From positions 340-64,339 of the forward strand of contig JAOAJN010000005.1 of the NCBI GenBank assembly GCA_026414165.1: 64,000 nucleotides of DNA, given 5' to 3'. The stretch comes from Candidatus Methanomethylicaceae archaeon. Lineage in GTDB: Archaea > Thermoproteota > Methanomethylicia > Methanomethylicales > Methanomethylicaceae. The notes beneath the pieces were generated by a model. The model did no database searches and was not told the DNA's origin. It worked only from the letters and a program-made list of their open reading frames with translations. The translations under genes and the position numbers were made by a program. This document shows, piece after piece, positions 9,346 to 16,142 of the stretch; position 1 is the first letter of the stretch; every line of letters starts with the position of its first letter.

Positions 9346-10410
9346 TCATCTTAGCTGTTGCATTAGATCCTGCGCTTCTTTGTTCTTGCTAAAGTATTCT
9401 CTGACAGGCACAAGCATTCTTGAAAGTTCTTCGGATACTGCATTCTTGAGATCTAATGGGTGAATCTTTCCTTGAGAATAAATCGTCACCAACGCCTCTG
9501 CAGACTCGATAATCAAATCCCCTCCATACCTTGCGTCCCTCTTAATTACAAACCCTTCATTCCTGTTCAATATTATGCGAGTGGCAATGTCCAACACTGG
9601 GTTTCCTTGGACGACCGCGGGGGGGCAATATGCTTTATTTATCTTTGACTTGATCTCCTCCTGAGAATCATGAATGAAGATACAAGTCTCTGGCTTAGAT
9701 TTACTCATTTTTTGCTCAATCATTGCCTCTTCCTCTGAGAGATTCCCCTCCATTCTTCCTTTACCCTGCAAGCCTGGAAGAAGGGGGGTGTGTATTGCGA
9801 TAGGTTTTTTATGCGAATAAACTTCTGCCACTTCCCGCGCCAAAACATGCGCCCTTCTTTGATCCATTCCGCCTAAACAAATATCAAGATCTAGGAAAAA
9901 TATGTCCTCTACTTGCATGCAAGGATAAATGAGTTTTGAGAAATCAACAACAGACTCGTCTTCCTTTCTACCCATTATCGTAAAAGCCCTCTTTATTCTT
10001 GATAATGAAAGAGTCTTTGCGATCTTCAGAAGACCTTCCCAATATTCTTTCTTATCAATTAATTCGTCAGCCTTTATAAGGTTCAGCCTATCAACGTCTA
10101 CCCCTAATGCTCTAAGGCAATGTTCTATATAATTCGCACACGCATTTATCTTGGATAGATCTCCGCCGAATTTATCGTTTATCCACGCATGCCAAGTAGC
10201 CTCCAAAAGCGTCATTTTAACACCAACATCCATCAAATCCTTAAGCTTGTTGACCCATATTACCCATCCTAAGTGGAACAAACCAGAAGGCTCGACCCCT
10301 ATGTAACCTTTGGGTGAAGTATTTGTCTCGAATAACTCTTGGAGATCCTTTCTTGTTATAACTTCTTGTGTGTTTCTTACAACTTTTTCCACTTTTGTCA
10401 TGACGTCCAT
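9346..10410 (-). CDS. tyrS: Tyrosyl-tRNA synthetase
   Basis: 354-residue class I synthetase. The HIGH-type motif is HLGW in PSGLFHLGW near residue 43, the GGMDQRRAH stretch is the tyrosine-specific active-site signature, and KMSKS lies near residue 235. Length and lack of a C-terminal S4 domain fit archaeal TyrRS. Two in-frame ATGs exist (10410 and 10401). AGGGGG lies 10 nt before the first. No promoter is obvious between the gene and the structured RNA at 10432-10537, so the mRNA may carry that RNA as a leader or be processed from it. Confidence 0.93.
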   Translation of the reverse strand: MDVMTKVEKVVRNTQEVITRKDLQELFETNTSPKGYIGVEPSGLFHLGWVIWVNKLKDLMDVGVKMTLLEATWHAWINDKFGGDLSKINACANYIEHCLRALGVDVDRLNLIKADELIDKKEYWEGLLKIAKTLSLSRIKRAFTIMGRKEDESVVDFSKLIYPCMQVEDIFFLDLDICLGGMDQRRAHVLAREVAEVYSHKKPIAIHTPLLPGLQGKGRMEGNLSEEEAMIEQKMSKSKPETCIFIHDSQEEIKSKINKAYCPPAVVQGNPVLDIATRIILNRNEGFVIKRDARYGGDLIIESAEALVTIYSQGKIHPLDLKNAVSEELSRMLVPVREYFSKNKEAQDLMQQLR

Positions 10411-10431: not shown

Positions 10432-10537
10432 GGGCAAGCCGCCGTGTTGCCCGATGCTAACACCCGGCCTCATCGAAGGACTTTTCATCCAGCTCAGGCG
10501 GGCTCTCTCTCATCGGGATCTATCCGGCGGCCTGCCC
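10432..10537 (-). ncRNA. Candidate H/ACA-like guide RNA A, enclosed by an outer helix
   Basis: The minus strand folds into a long interrupted hairpin. The outer helix is 13 bp (10525-10537 with 10432-10444, one G-U). A 7-bp helix follows (CCCGATG with CATCGGG), then an internal pocket (AGAGAGA, 10504-10510, opposite GTTAG, 10457-10461), then an upper helix that contains CTGA opposite GATGA, the sheared-pair pattern of an L7Ae kink-turn. An ACA (10447-10445) lies exactly 14 nt beyond the upper helix, the archaeal H/ACA spacing. A TATA-like GTTAAATAA at 10567-10559 is centred 26 nt upstream of the 5' end. The pocket arms would be the guide. The target is unknown. The outer helix beyond ACA is unusual. 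Confidence 0.5.
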
Positions 10538-10574
10538 GTGAATCTAATTAAAACTTCCTTATTTAACTATTTGA

Positions 10575-10670
10575 GCCGTGAGGCTGTTGCGGGTGTGGGT
10601 TAGGTCATGTTCATCGCTGAGCAACGCTCGACTCACTTGACCCCTTCGACCCGCTCTTTCACCTCACGGC
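10575..10670 (-). ncRNA. Candidate H/ACA-like guide RNA B, same architecture as RNA A
   Basis: This is the second structured RNA just upstream of RNA A on the same strand. The outer helix is 9 bp (GCCGTGAGG, complement of 10662-10670, with CCTCACGGC at 10575-10583). A 6-bp helix follows (GCGGGT with ACCCGC), then a pocket (CGAAGG at 10643-10648 opposite TAACCCAC at 10595-10602), a GGTCA/TGACC upper helix and a kink-turn-like TGAG opposite GATGA, capped by GAGC-GTT-GCTC. ACA (10587-10585) lies 15 nt past the upper helix. A TATA-like GATATAAG (10702-10695) is about 28 nt upstream of the 5' end. The sequence differs from RNA A, so the shared plan is architectural. Targets are unknown. Confidence 0.48.
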
Positions 10671-10805
10671 GCTCGGCTCCCACCTCATCGCAATCTTATA
10701 TCTGTAATAACCTAAAGATAAACTTTGCAAAAATCAAAAATTGACTTTTTGTTTTCATAGATGCTAATCTTAAACTGCACTATGTGTAGCAATCCGTCCA
10801 TTTCA

Positions 10806-12452
10806 TCAATGTCCTAACAATGATGAAAGATCACATTCTAATGCTCCAACAGGAAACTCAAGACCGAACTTCACCAGAACTTGAGGTGATATCTCCCCGA
10901 CCACGCCGATCTCGTCACCATCGAGTATAATCTTTGCCGTTCGCCCTTCTAAGAATGGAGCCTTATGATATGGCTCAAATTTTATGGACTTAGATAGGTT
11001 AGTAAACAAAGAGGCAGCCACCGCCTGTATATCCTCATAGCTCACCTTATGGTCTGCAATAGCTGCTGCCAAATGCGTTGAAACTTTTGGCAACCCTCCC
11101 TTAACAAAAATCACATCGCCGCACTCGAAAATGCGCTGTGGGTATGCATGGTGTGTGTTCTGTCCCAAAAATTGCAAGAGTTTGGGCAAAATGCAATCCC
11201 TTAAGACTGCAAACTCGGAAGATACTGGGTTTATCAGTTCCACGAGATCCCTTTTATCCATGAGTACCTTATCTTCCAAGACCGATTTGTTACTAAGTAA
11301 GTATGTAATCACTTCTTGAAAGCCCATGCCAATCATTATGTCCCTTATTCGTTTTCTGATCCTGCTCCCTTTAAGTGGTCTCCCTATAGTTGCAACTTTA
11401 GGCGTCTCTGGCTCTATATTATTTAAACCAAGTGCAATTACAATATCTTCAACTAAATCAACCTCATGAATAATGTCTGCTCTATAAGGGGGCGAAAATA
11501 CAACCAGCTTCCCTCCTTCTTCTTCAACGTCATGCCCCATCCTCCTTAGAAGACCTAAAATCTCATCCAGCTTTAAGTCTAGACCTGCAACTTCTTTTAT
11601 CTTAGATGGACTTAGCTCAGTACGTACACGGTCCAGTTTTGGTGTAATAATCTCGCGCCCTCCATACAAAACCTCCGCCTGCTGGAGCACTCCGCCCCTT
11701 TCCATCAACGAAGTTACCAAAATATTTAAACAAAGATTTATTGTACGCTCCTCGGTACCTGTTACATCTATTATAATGTTTTTAGTCTCTTCTGTTACCT
11801 TTGTGTCTTCACTGTTTATTATGGGCGGCATTGAAAGAACCCTTCCTTTGGAGTCGCTGAGCAGTGGATATCTGCTCTTTCCCTCTAATATCCAAGCATA
11901 CTCGGCTCCCTTTGGAGTTCTTTTCAATATTTCGAAACCATTCATAGTCTCATTGAAACCTAATGGTGTAAATCTTATTTCATCAGGAGGGAGTGCCGCG
12001 TATACAAGTGGAGGGCATACCTTATCTATATCGTATATGCCGATTGACCCTTTTTTCCTGTTAGAGCAGTAAGTGCTATGAAGTTTCTCCTGAAGCTGCA
12101 TCATTTGAACCAAAGCCTCTTCGTCCAAAGTCAAATCGCGAACAACCGCGGACACTATATATGGTCGGACTTCTGACACAGAGGGATCCACTCTTATAAT
12201 AACAGGTTTTGCACCTTGGTAATGCCTAACCTTCAGTCTTGGTCCACTGTGGTAGAGTCTTATTCCTCGTGCAATTCCTTCACAACTGAAAAAATCGGGT
12301 CTATCTGATGTGACTTCCAAAGTTATCTTGTCTCCAACTATTTGCTCTGGTTCGCATTTCAATGCGGAGAGCGTATCATAGATTGTGCCATCATCAAGAT
12401 TGAGACTAATGAGCCGCTTAAGATCTTTCATGTCGATATTTATTGTAGGCAT
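10806..12452 (-). CDS. pheT: Phenylalanyl-tRNA synthetase beta subunit
   Basis: Archaeal/eukaryotic-type PheRS beta subunit of 548 residues, with the B3/B4 editing region in the N-terminal half (the SDRPDF motif near 50 and RPYIV near 100), a B5 DNA-binding-like domain (about 270-340) and a catalytic-like core at the C-terminus (near 360-545). It forms a heterotetramer with PheS. The ATG at 12452 (MPTINID) is preferred over the in-frame GTG at 12464, which lies inside the end of pheS. The ATG falls 2 nt after the pheS stop, with GGGTGG upstream, so translation is coupled. Confidence 0.95.
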   Translation of the reverse strand: MPTINIDMKDLKRLISLNLDDGTIYDTLSALKCEPEQIVGDKITLEVTSDRPDFFSCEGIARGIRLYHSGPRLKVRHYQGAKPVIIRVDPSVSEVRPYIVSAVVRDLTLDEEALVQMMQLQEKLHSTYCSNRKKGSIGIYDIDKVCPPLVYAALPPDEIRFTPLGFNETMNGFEILKRTPKGAEYAWILEGKSRYPLLSDSKGRVLSMPPIINSEDTKVTEETKNIIIDVTGTEERTINLCLNILVTSLMERGGVLQQAEVLYGGREIITPKLDRVRTELSPSKIKEVAGLDLKLDEILGLLRRMGHDVEEEGGKLVVFSPPYRADIIHEVDLVEDIVIALGLNNIEPETPKVATIGRPLKGSRIRKRIRDIMIGMGFQEVITYLLSNKSVLEDKVLMDKRDLVELINPVSSEFAVLRDCILPKLLQFLGQNTHHAYPQRIFECGDVIFVKGGLPKVSTHLAAAIADHKVSYEDIQAVAASLFTNLSKSIKFEPYHKAPFLEGRTAKIILDGDEIGVVGEISPQVLVKFGLEFPVGALECDLSSLLGH

Positions 12453-12454
12453 GT

Positions 12455-13927
12455 TTAAACCCACCCCTTCTCCCTTAGCATTCCTAAGTTTGATGTATGA
12501 AGTTCACGAATATCGTCAACTCCGAGCCTAATCATTGCTAGCCGGTCTATGCCAAATGCCCACGCTATAACAGGGAAATCTATACCAAGCGGTTTTGTTA
12601 CCTCTGGTCTGAAAAGTCCAGATCCCAAACACTCTATCCAACCAAGCGTTGGATGCCTAACATATGCCTCTATACTTGGCTCCGTAAATGGAAAATAGCT
12701 AGGTTTGAATTTTATCTCGTTGAACCCGAGTTGCATCGCAAATTCGTTAAGAATTCCTAGAAGGTGTCTAACGTTTATTCCATGATCACCCATTATCCCA
12801 TCAAGCTGACAGAACTCTACCATATGCTTCGAATCGATTACGTCTGGTCTGAATACTTTTGAAAGACAAAAAGCCTTGACCGGAGGGGTCCTGTGTTGCG
12901 ACAAATACCTAACAGAGACAGACGTTGTCTGACTTCTCAGGATTGGTCGACTTGCTATCTCTCTGCTCCACTTGTAGCCCCACCCCTTCGATCCGGTGCC
13001 CCCTCCGTTTTCATGGACTGCTTTGACCTTTGATATTACATCCTCGGAAGCATCGATTTGATGTATAACTCCTTTGACTTGGAAGCTGTCGTGTATTGCT
13101 CGTGCTGGATGATCTTGTGCTTGGAAGAGCGCATCGAAATTCCAAAACTCGCTCTCCACGTAAGGTCCAGAAGCTTCTTCGAAACCCATGGCAAATAGGA
13201 TCTCCTTGACTTCTTCCAAGAACTCTAAGTATGGGTGCTTTTTGCCGATGATAATCACCGGAGGCGAAGCTCTCACATCATAATGTGATAACCTCAAACT
13301 GCGCCATCTTCCAGACTTTAAAATATCAGATGTAAGGACTCTGCAGGTCTCCAATTCTTGAACGGATGCTTCTTTCACGAGCTCGACAACAAGGGTCTTT
13401 GAAGTCCTTAAGGACACTAATCCCCTCTTCTCCAACTCTTTAACCTTCTCCAACTCTTGGGGTGAGAGTGACGCCTTCTCAGGTCTGTCAGAGATCTTTT
13501 TGATCAAATCTTCGAGATCCGGAATTGCTTTCTTCTTGAGTAAAACCTTGGGCGTCCTGCCAGTTCTGTCAATTTCTATCACACCGCACCTCTTTCCCCA
13601 GCCCAAAGCTGCTGAGAATTCCCTTTCATCAAAATTTCTCTTGAGTTCATCAAGCTCGACTCCTCCCTCCTTAGAGCCTAACATGTTACAAAGTCGAGTC
13701 TCTGGCAGACCTATCTCTACACACTTCTTACCCTCTTCAGTAAGTTCATACCACTCCTTTATGATCTCTTGGGTTTCTACGTACCCCTTATCCCTTAAAA
13801 GAGATGATAATGGAAAGATGGACGAGATTGGCTCATTAAGAGCTGCTGCCAAAGAGGCAGCATCTGCCCTCCCGCCCAACTTCTTCAATGATTCGAGAAG
13901 ACGCACCTCGGATGAACTTAAGGACAT
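12455..13927 (-). CDS. pheS: Phenylalanyl-tRNA synthetase alpha subunit
   Basis: 490-residue archaeal PheRS alpha. N-terminal winged-helix repeats (about 1-200) precede the class II catalytic core, with motif 2 (around RSQTTSVSVRYL and KAFCLSKVFRPD) and motif 3 at the C-terminus (WAFGIDRLAM). Two adjacent ATGs exist. The second, at 13927, is 6 nt behind GGAGGT and is taken as the start, although 13930 is possible. pheT follows immediately. The gene upstream on this strand, PPAT, ends 12-15 nt before it, so PheRS lies in one operon with CoA and DUF1512 genes. Confidence 0.95.
   Translation of the reverse strand: MSLSSSEVRLLESLKKLGGRADAASLAAALNEPISSIFPLSSLLRDKGYVETQEIIKEWYELTEEGKKCVEIGLPETRLCNMLGSKEGGVELDELKRNFDEREFSAALGWGKRCGVIEIDRTGRTPKVLLKKKAIPDLEDLIKKISDRPEKASLSPQELEKVKELEKRGLVSLRTSKTLVVELVKEASVQELETCRVLTSDILKSGRWRSLRLSHYDVRASPPVIIIGKKHPYLEFLEEVKEILFAMGFEEASGPYVESEFWNFDALFQAQDHPARAIHDSFQVKGVIHQIDASEDVISKVKAVHENGGGTGSKGWGYKWSREIASRPILRSQTTSVSVRYLSQHRTPPVKAFCLSKVFRPDVIDSKHMVEFCQLDGIMGDHGINVRHLLGILNEFAMQLGFNEIKFKPSYFPFTEPSIEAYVRHPTLGWIECLGSGLFRPEVTKPLGIDFPVIAWAFGIDRLAMIRLGVDDIRELHTSNLGMLREKGWV

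Positions 13928-16016: not shown

Positions 16017-16142
<126 letters not shown>

Follow-up and report, generated by a model that had tools for sequence, protein, structure and literature searches.

The window, by which we mean the whole 64,000-nucleotide stretch of DNA analyzed here, carries two minus-strand elements, E1 and E2, between pheT (10806-12464) and tyrS. The identities of both flanking genes exceed curated cut-offs, and the closest relatives of tyrS come from bins of Candidatus Methanomethylicota (Verstraetearchaeota). E1 is the upstream element (about 10691-10575), and E2 (10537-10432) adjoins tyrS, with its end 21 nt 5' of the tyrS start. The two elements are very probably small RNA genes, predicted to guide the conversion of uridine to pseudouridine in the ribosome. 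We note that genes for SRP RNA (1315-1629) and 5S rRNA (16018-16139) lie on the minus strand of the same window.

Structure and covariation of E1 and E2

An earlier note on this DNA had described two minus-strand RNAs built on one fold plan. This was borne out by minimum free energy folds, which recovered the plan at z = -5.35 for E2 and -5.27 for E1, and by covariation across 17 genomes. In each element, an outer helix (13 bp in E2, including one G-U, and 10 bp in E1) encloses a basal helix, an internal pocket and an upper helix (Table 1). In the upper helix, a K-turn follows a GA stem of some 10 bp, which inspection of the alignments resolves into 10 positions with a mismatch at position 6 in both elements and a basal G-U in E2. 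These parts are the ones expected of an H/ACA RNA, as is an ANA box located 14-16 nt downstream of the upper stem; the spacings of 14 nt (E2) and 15 nt (E1) given in the earlier note were conserved. Published archaeal H/ACA rules match the ACA spacing and GA stem of both elements, and of the published fold rules E2 resembles 10/5/9 and E1 10/6/9 (PMC4652768). The pocket arms of E2 are complementary to the two sides of a uridine of the 23S rRNA (U1921), and Cbf5 is encoded in the genome. The H/ACA reading is supported by structure, covariation, homology and target tests.

Table 1. Positions of E1, E2 and associated features in the window
Feature	Position	Strand	Evidence and remarks
Promoter-like element AAAGTTTATCTTT, upstream of E1	10714..10726	-	Conserved as GNAAAGYTTATYTY in 13/17 relatives; predicted function
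E1 5' extension GCGATGARGTGGGAGCYGAGC	10671..10691	-	K-turn/K-loop-like, GCGATGA..CCGAGC; in 13/17 family relatives
E1 outer helix, 5' strand	10661..10670	-	Two-sided change in 7/10 pairs, 17 genomes
E1 basal helix P1, 5' strand	10649..10654	-	100% of cells paired; 1 pair two-sided, 4 invariant
E1 5' guide arm (pocket) CGAAGG	10643..10648	-	Distant homologues GACGG(A), complementary to 23S CCGUC 2590-2594
E1 upper stem and K-turn	10603..10642	-	Fold, covariation; GA stem 10642-10633; Kt-n TGA 10635-10633, Kt-b GATGA 10615-10611
E1 3' guide arm (pocket) TAACCCAC	10595..10602	-	Near-invariant, 17 genomes; AACCCA complementary to 23S UGGGUU 2580-2585
E1 basal helix P1, 3' strand	10589..10594	-	Covariation
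E1 ACA box	10585..10587	-	Invariant 17/17; 15 nt past upper stem; abuts outer helix
E1 outer helix, 3' strand	10575..10584	-	Covariation with 5' strand
TATA-like element TTAAATAAGG, between E1 and E2	10557..10566	-	In only part of the family; predicted function
E2 outer helix, 5' strand	10525..10537	-	Two-sided change in 10/13 pairs
E2 basal helix P1, 5' strand	10511..10517	-	Covariation
E2 5' guide arm (pocket) AGAGAGA	10504..10510	-	3' end pairs 23S UCUU 1923-1926
E2 upper stem and K-turn, GA stem from 10503	10462..10503	-	Alignment, covariation, fold, Rfam HgcG alignment; Kt-n CTGA 10497-10494, Kt-b GATGA 10474-10470
E2 3' guide arm (pocket) GTTAG	10457..10461	-	Invariant 17/17; pairs 23S CUGAC 1916-1920
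E2 basal helix P1, 3' strand	10450..10456	-	Covariation
E2 ACA box	10445..10447	-	Invariant 17/17; 14 nt past upper stem; abuts outer helix
E2 outer helix, 3' strand	10432..10444	-	Covariation with 5' strand
tyrS, tyrosine--tRNA ligase (neighbor, outside the RNAs)	9346..10410	-	NF006330, 452 bits, above cut-off

Searching relatives at the DNA level recovered the E1/E2 region in most genomes of the family, and covariation was assessed in alignments of 17 Methanomethylicota orthologues per element. For E2, 94.1% of cells pair and 20 of 33 pairs show two-sided change, with a covariation score of 0.400 compared with 0.190 in shuffles; pairing fell to 33%-49% when partners were slid. Two-sided change was found in 12 of 28 pairs of E1, seven of them among the 10 pairs of the outer helix. 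Pairing in both elements was far above chance against shuffled and slid alignment controls, and two-sided changes occurred in outer, basal and upper helices, so that the helices proposed in the earlier note do covary across relatives.

The E1 gene probably extends past its outer helix, at which the earlier note had placed its 5' end, as the conserved GCGATGARGTGGGAGCYGAGC precedes that helix. The helix itself stands, except that it is missing or weak in two of the 17 relatives (L013 and L017). The extension (GCGATGA..GAGC) is absent from L006, L007, L013 and L017, and several distant genomes have a comparable GCRATGA..GAGC ahead of E1. The conserved promoter-like element upstream of E1 is AAAGTTTATCTTT and not GATATAAG, which had been put forward as its TATA-like element. 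Independent transcription of E1 and E2 is a plausible prediction from the sequence. The GUGGG loop of GCGATGARGTGGGAGCYGAGC is also complementary to CCCAC in the 3' arm of E1.

Homologues, the outer helix and the tyrS neighborhood

Neither element matched Rfam at gathering score. The one meaningful cmscan match was between E2 and stem III (positions 202-266) of HgcG/Pab40 (RF00064), at 23.8 bits (E 5.7e-5), compared with a gathering threshold of 77 bits that is set for the whole three-hairpin RNA. Judged by this alignment, E2 is a homologue of HgcG/Pab40 stem III and not a full member of RF00064. With a covariance model of E2, matches were obtained in 60 of the 200 Thermoproteota genomes searched, and many of them include the outer helix. 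Several of these homologues scored 28-48 bits against HgcG (maximum 47.9), which connects E2 to HgcG. The E1 model gave matches in 19 of the 200 genomes, two of them beyond the family (G022 and G081), and in both of these E1 and E2 are again adjacent. Reading of the sequences found an E1-like hairpin with arms GACGG and UACCCA directly preceding many distant E2 homologues.

The outer helix after the ACA, recognized in the earlier note as lying outside the standard archaeal design, proved to be strongly covarying. When 50 E2 sequences were aligned by fitting to the model, all 13 outer pairs showed two-sided change and 90.1% of cells paired. Because such an alignment is biased toward the model, we also ran an independent shuffle test on 50 distant homologues, measuring in each the longest helix that the sequence 3' of the ANA box forms with the flanks of the basal helix. 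With anchors set by pattern, a few of them off by 1-3 nt, the helix beat shuffles at p<0.01 in 27 of 50 homologues and at p<0.05 in 33 of 50; it begins no more than 3 nt from the ANA box in 22 of the 27. It was not found in some lineages, such as L240, L241, L076 and L077. Swapped-flank controls were uninformative, since the flanks are related and GC-rich, and were set aside in favor of shuffles.

In many distant genomes, the first outer helix has its 3' strand directly against the 5' strand of the second, and the E1-like and E2 units there thus resemble a single RNA. Base changes in the short first outer helix compensate one another between genomes (CCCGCC/GGCGGG and CCCACC/GGTGGG), a pattern seen by eye and left uncounted. 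Desulfurococcales-type E2 sequences (L228, L044, L054, L056 and L060) have a longer 5' strand of the internal loop, and ACAACCCCG or CGCCGCCCC recurs in them between the outer and basal helices.

Archaeal H/ACA RNAs as published terminate at the ACA and are drawn with it as a free 3' end. E1 and E2 depart from this, with a covarying outer helix directly following the ACA. We class them as an H/ACA variant because the free 3' ACA is a published description rather than a demonstrated functional requirement. An ACA within a closed internal loop is not known to bind Cbf5, and searches covering part of the field's literature located no description of such an outer helix.

The linkage to TyrRS, which the earlier note had called unexplained, is real and phylum-wide. 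We surveyed 67 tyrS loci outside the close relatives for an E2 match at E below 0.001, and 26 had E2 nearby: 25 within 250 nt of the start (7-246 nt) and one (L108) at 1452 nt. E2 was co-oriented with tyrS in 16 of these 26 loci and on the opposite strand in 10. About 400 nt separate E2 and tyrS in L034 and L017. Further, tyrS lay in the small flank of ten E2 homologues that had been found without reference to it. The E2-tyrS linkage is an ancient synteny across much of the phylum. It may reflect a promoter region common to both, or the gene order may simply have been retained.

Predicted targets in 23S rRNA

Targets were scored on the rRNA of relatives, since the genome bin came without it, with the 10-position GA stem setting the pocket edges. 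Nearly all of these rRNAs have GGGAGUAACUCUGACUCUCUUAAGG as their helix 69. With the two arms of E2 paired there as in Table 1, U1921-C1922 are left in the pocket. Among the 371-641 LSU uridines of each genome, U1921 (E. coli numbering) comes first or second in 15 of 17 genomes scored, although the guides are related and these ranks are non-independent tests. The complementarity of E2 itself is modest, at 5 bp (one U-G) plus 4 bp (one G-U). Each LSU contained a looser helix 69 motif once, and this motif turned up in 8 of 1000 shuffles. The Desulfurococcales-type arms UAUAAGA and UUUAAGA pair even better at U1921.

Some homologues of E2 differ in register. Those with GUUAC/GGGUCA arms, L240 (in genome G157) and L077, fit U1915, and in G157 this site ranks first and has the register of Pab40.3; the guide thus appears, from its complementarity, to have been retargeted within helix 69. 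The G156 homologue fits neither U1921 nor U1915, and that of G028 has a possible fit at U1923 (rank second). A GGUCA 3' arm that might address U1923 is present in L238 (G028), L052, L055 and L069. Family f4 (L195, L199 and L200) has a GAUCG 3' arm, with its best 5' duplex at LSU GGGCGAUC[UA] and no clear target found. There was no convincing pairing between the guides and the 30 tRNA loci of G007, and no target motif in the SRP RNA, the 5S RNA or the window itself.

For E1, the likeliest target is the peptidyl-transferase loop around U2586, a prediction from complementarity that is weaker than the case for E2. In distant E1 homologues, ACCCA(G) and GACGG match the CUGGGU and CCGUC that flank UUAGA (2585-2589). 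UGGGU..CCGUC, the E1-type motif, is present once in each LSU, and UUGGGU..CCGUC was found in 7 of 1000 shuffled rRNAs. In the window's family, the paired AACCCA would place U2586 in the pocket; the 5' arm pairs poorly at this site, which ranks from 3rd to 86th under a loose score. The earlier proposal that the arms pair around an rRNA uridine therefore holds for E2 and is less convincing for E1. An SSU candidate for E1, 'GUGUUGGGU[UG]', was rejected, as it needed an implausible pocket edge and was absent in G012. Certainty is lowest for the exact uridines, that of E1 in particular, and for retention of the outer helix in the mature RNA.

Interpretation and comparison with known guides

We consider it highly likely that E1 and E2 are two H/ACA guide units, each clamped by an outer helix, with predicted 23S targets in helix 69 and the peptidyl-transferase loop. 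The structures, covariation, homology, complementarity and synteny can be read from the DNA itself, and we infer transcription, protein binding, modification and a role for the outer helix. L7Ae would bind each K-turn, and Cbf5-Nop10-Gar1 would bind the GA stem, pocket, basal helix and ACA. Paired with 23S rRNA, both strands of the pocket would offer a single uridine to Cbf5 for pseudouridylation, with E2 placing U1921 of helix 69 in its pocket and E1 a uridine of the peptidyl-transferase loop, most likely U2586. The outer helix would probably close and stabilize the RNA ends, and in many relatives it may join two units head to tail. Both rRNA regions are among the functionally most loaded parts of the LSU, and their guides in Thermoproteota have been poorly known. 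The covariance models locate the guide in dozens of genomes, and a specific pseudouridine, U1921, is predicted.

The published targets of the homologues (1915/1917; PMC2584109; PMC4652768) raise the alternative that E2 guides U1915 and/or U1917, like Pab40.3 and Haloferax HP2, and not U1921. GUUA also pairs UAAC 1911-1914, AGAGAG pairs CUCUCU if more target nucleotides are left unpaired, and the G157 homologue described above has this register. We nevertheless regard U1915/U1917 as an unlikely target, as the contiguous two-nucleotide register at U1921 is best or second in 15 genomes, whereas U1915 comes without a 3' duplex. In addition, the U1921 register is the only one in which the Desulfurococcales-type UUUAAGA pairs perfectly with 1923-1928. 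The 3' arm also carries G as its fifth base, which matches C1916, and not the C that matches G1910. It is also doubtful that the outer helix is a processing stem, removed in maturation to leave ordinary ACA-terminated H/ACA RNAs. Archaeal rRNA and tRNA processing does use enclosing stems, and the helix is absent from some homologues. However, it is kept in many lineages, directly abutting the ACA, and the internal loop, with strands of 6-7 and 4-5 nt at the same level, lacks the geometry of a bulge-helix-bulge, on which ground processing of that kind was rejected.

Two further readings would deny that the elements are guides. That they are cis-acting leaders of tyrS, riboswitch-like or L7Ae-responsive, draws on the closeness of E2 to the tyrS start in the window and in 25 distant loci, and on a precedent in Sulfolobus, where L7Ae regulates mRNAs via K-turns (PMC5539422). 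A leader should always lie upstream and co-oriented, and the occurrence of E2 in both orientations argues against one, as do the gap in L034 and L017, the conserved pockets and ACA, which suit a guide, and the occurrence of E1 and E2 elsewhere away from tyrS; we consider this reading very improbable. E1 and E2 are GC-rich relative to their immediate flanks, as chance hairpins in GC-rich intergenic DNA would be, but that explanation has a negligible probability and is refuted by covariation in 17 and then 50 sequences, together with fold z-scores near -5 and phylum-wide model matches.

A broader proposal, which we put forward tentatively and at somewhat less than even chances, is that Thermoproteota hold a distinct H/ACA class in which an outer helix clamps each unit and the ACA lies in a closed internal loop. 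This class would derive from a two-unit guide ancestral to the phylum, whose helix 69 unit has shifted its target within that helix (1915, 1921, perhaps 1923), and function would have kept it next to tyrS, for instance through a common promoter region or coordinated expression. The clamped E1 and E2 call into question the rule of a free 3' tail for archaeal ACA boxes, the E2 family suggests how a guide may retarget by a few nucleotides along one helix, and the long-lived tyrS linkage is a testable oddity of archaeal gene order.

E1 and E2 would be the Thermoproteota form of Haloferax HP1/HP2, and E2 also that of Pab40 stem III. HP1 and HP2 guide 2621 (E. coli 2586) and 1956/1958 (E. coli 1915/1917), respectively, and HP2 is a homologue of Pf7 stem III, with HP1 apparently that of stem II (PMC2584109). 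Toffano-Nioche et al. likewise list Hvo1-L2621 and Hvo2-L1956/L1958, with Pa40.3 and Af4.3 at the 1915 equivalent (PMC4652768). In Haloferax volcanii HP1/HP2 (Hvo1/Hvo2), as predicted for E1-E2, the peptidyl-transferase loop guide comes first and the helix 69 guide second, and by published order and target regions the two pairs appear to match. E1 and E2 differ from HP1/HP2 in their outer helices, the U1921 register and the genomic neighborhood. Stem III of HgcG/Pab40/Pf7 and A. fulgidus Af4.3 share with E2 a K-turn, a GUGUUA 3' arm and a target, predicted for E2, in the helix 69 region, and Af4.3 shares its basal G-U by published description (PMC4652768). Pab40.3 targets L2016 (the U1915 equivalent) with a GUUAC-type 3' arm, whereas E2 has GUUAG/AGAGA arms that fit U1921; the published descriptions of Pab40 that we searched contain no outer helix, unlike E2. 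No paper on these RNAs in Methanomethylicota was located in searches covering part of the literature. Given homology to HgcG/Pab40 stem III and probable homology to HP1/HP2, the elements have precedent, and their novelty is limited to the outer helix (a stem-clamped architecture), the target register and the neighborhood with its phylum-wide tyrS linkage.

Yeast and human H/ACA snoRNAs (snR191/U19, and the guides for the 1921/1923 equivalents) modify helix 69, the predicted target of E2, and are likened to it by target only; they are two-hairpin H-box/ACA RNAs without K-turns. Yeast psi2264/2266 would presumably be the 1921/1923 equivalents. The 1915/1917 equivalents are psi2258/2260 (PMC2584109). 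Pyrobaculum sR201-sR210 are, like E1 and E2, non-canonical H/ACA variants of Thermoproteota, but they mostly lose the lower stem, whereas E1 and E2 retain it and add a second enclosing stem.
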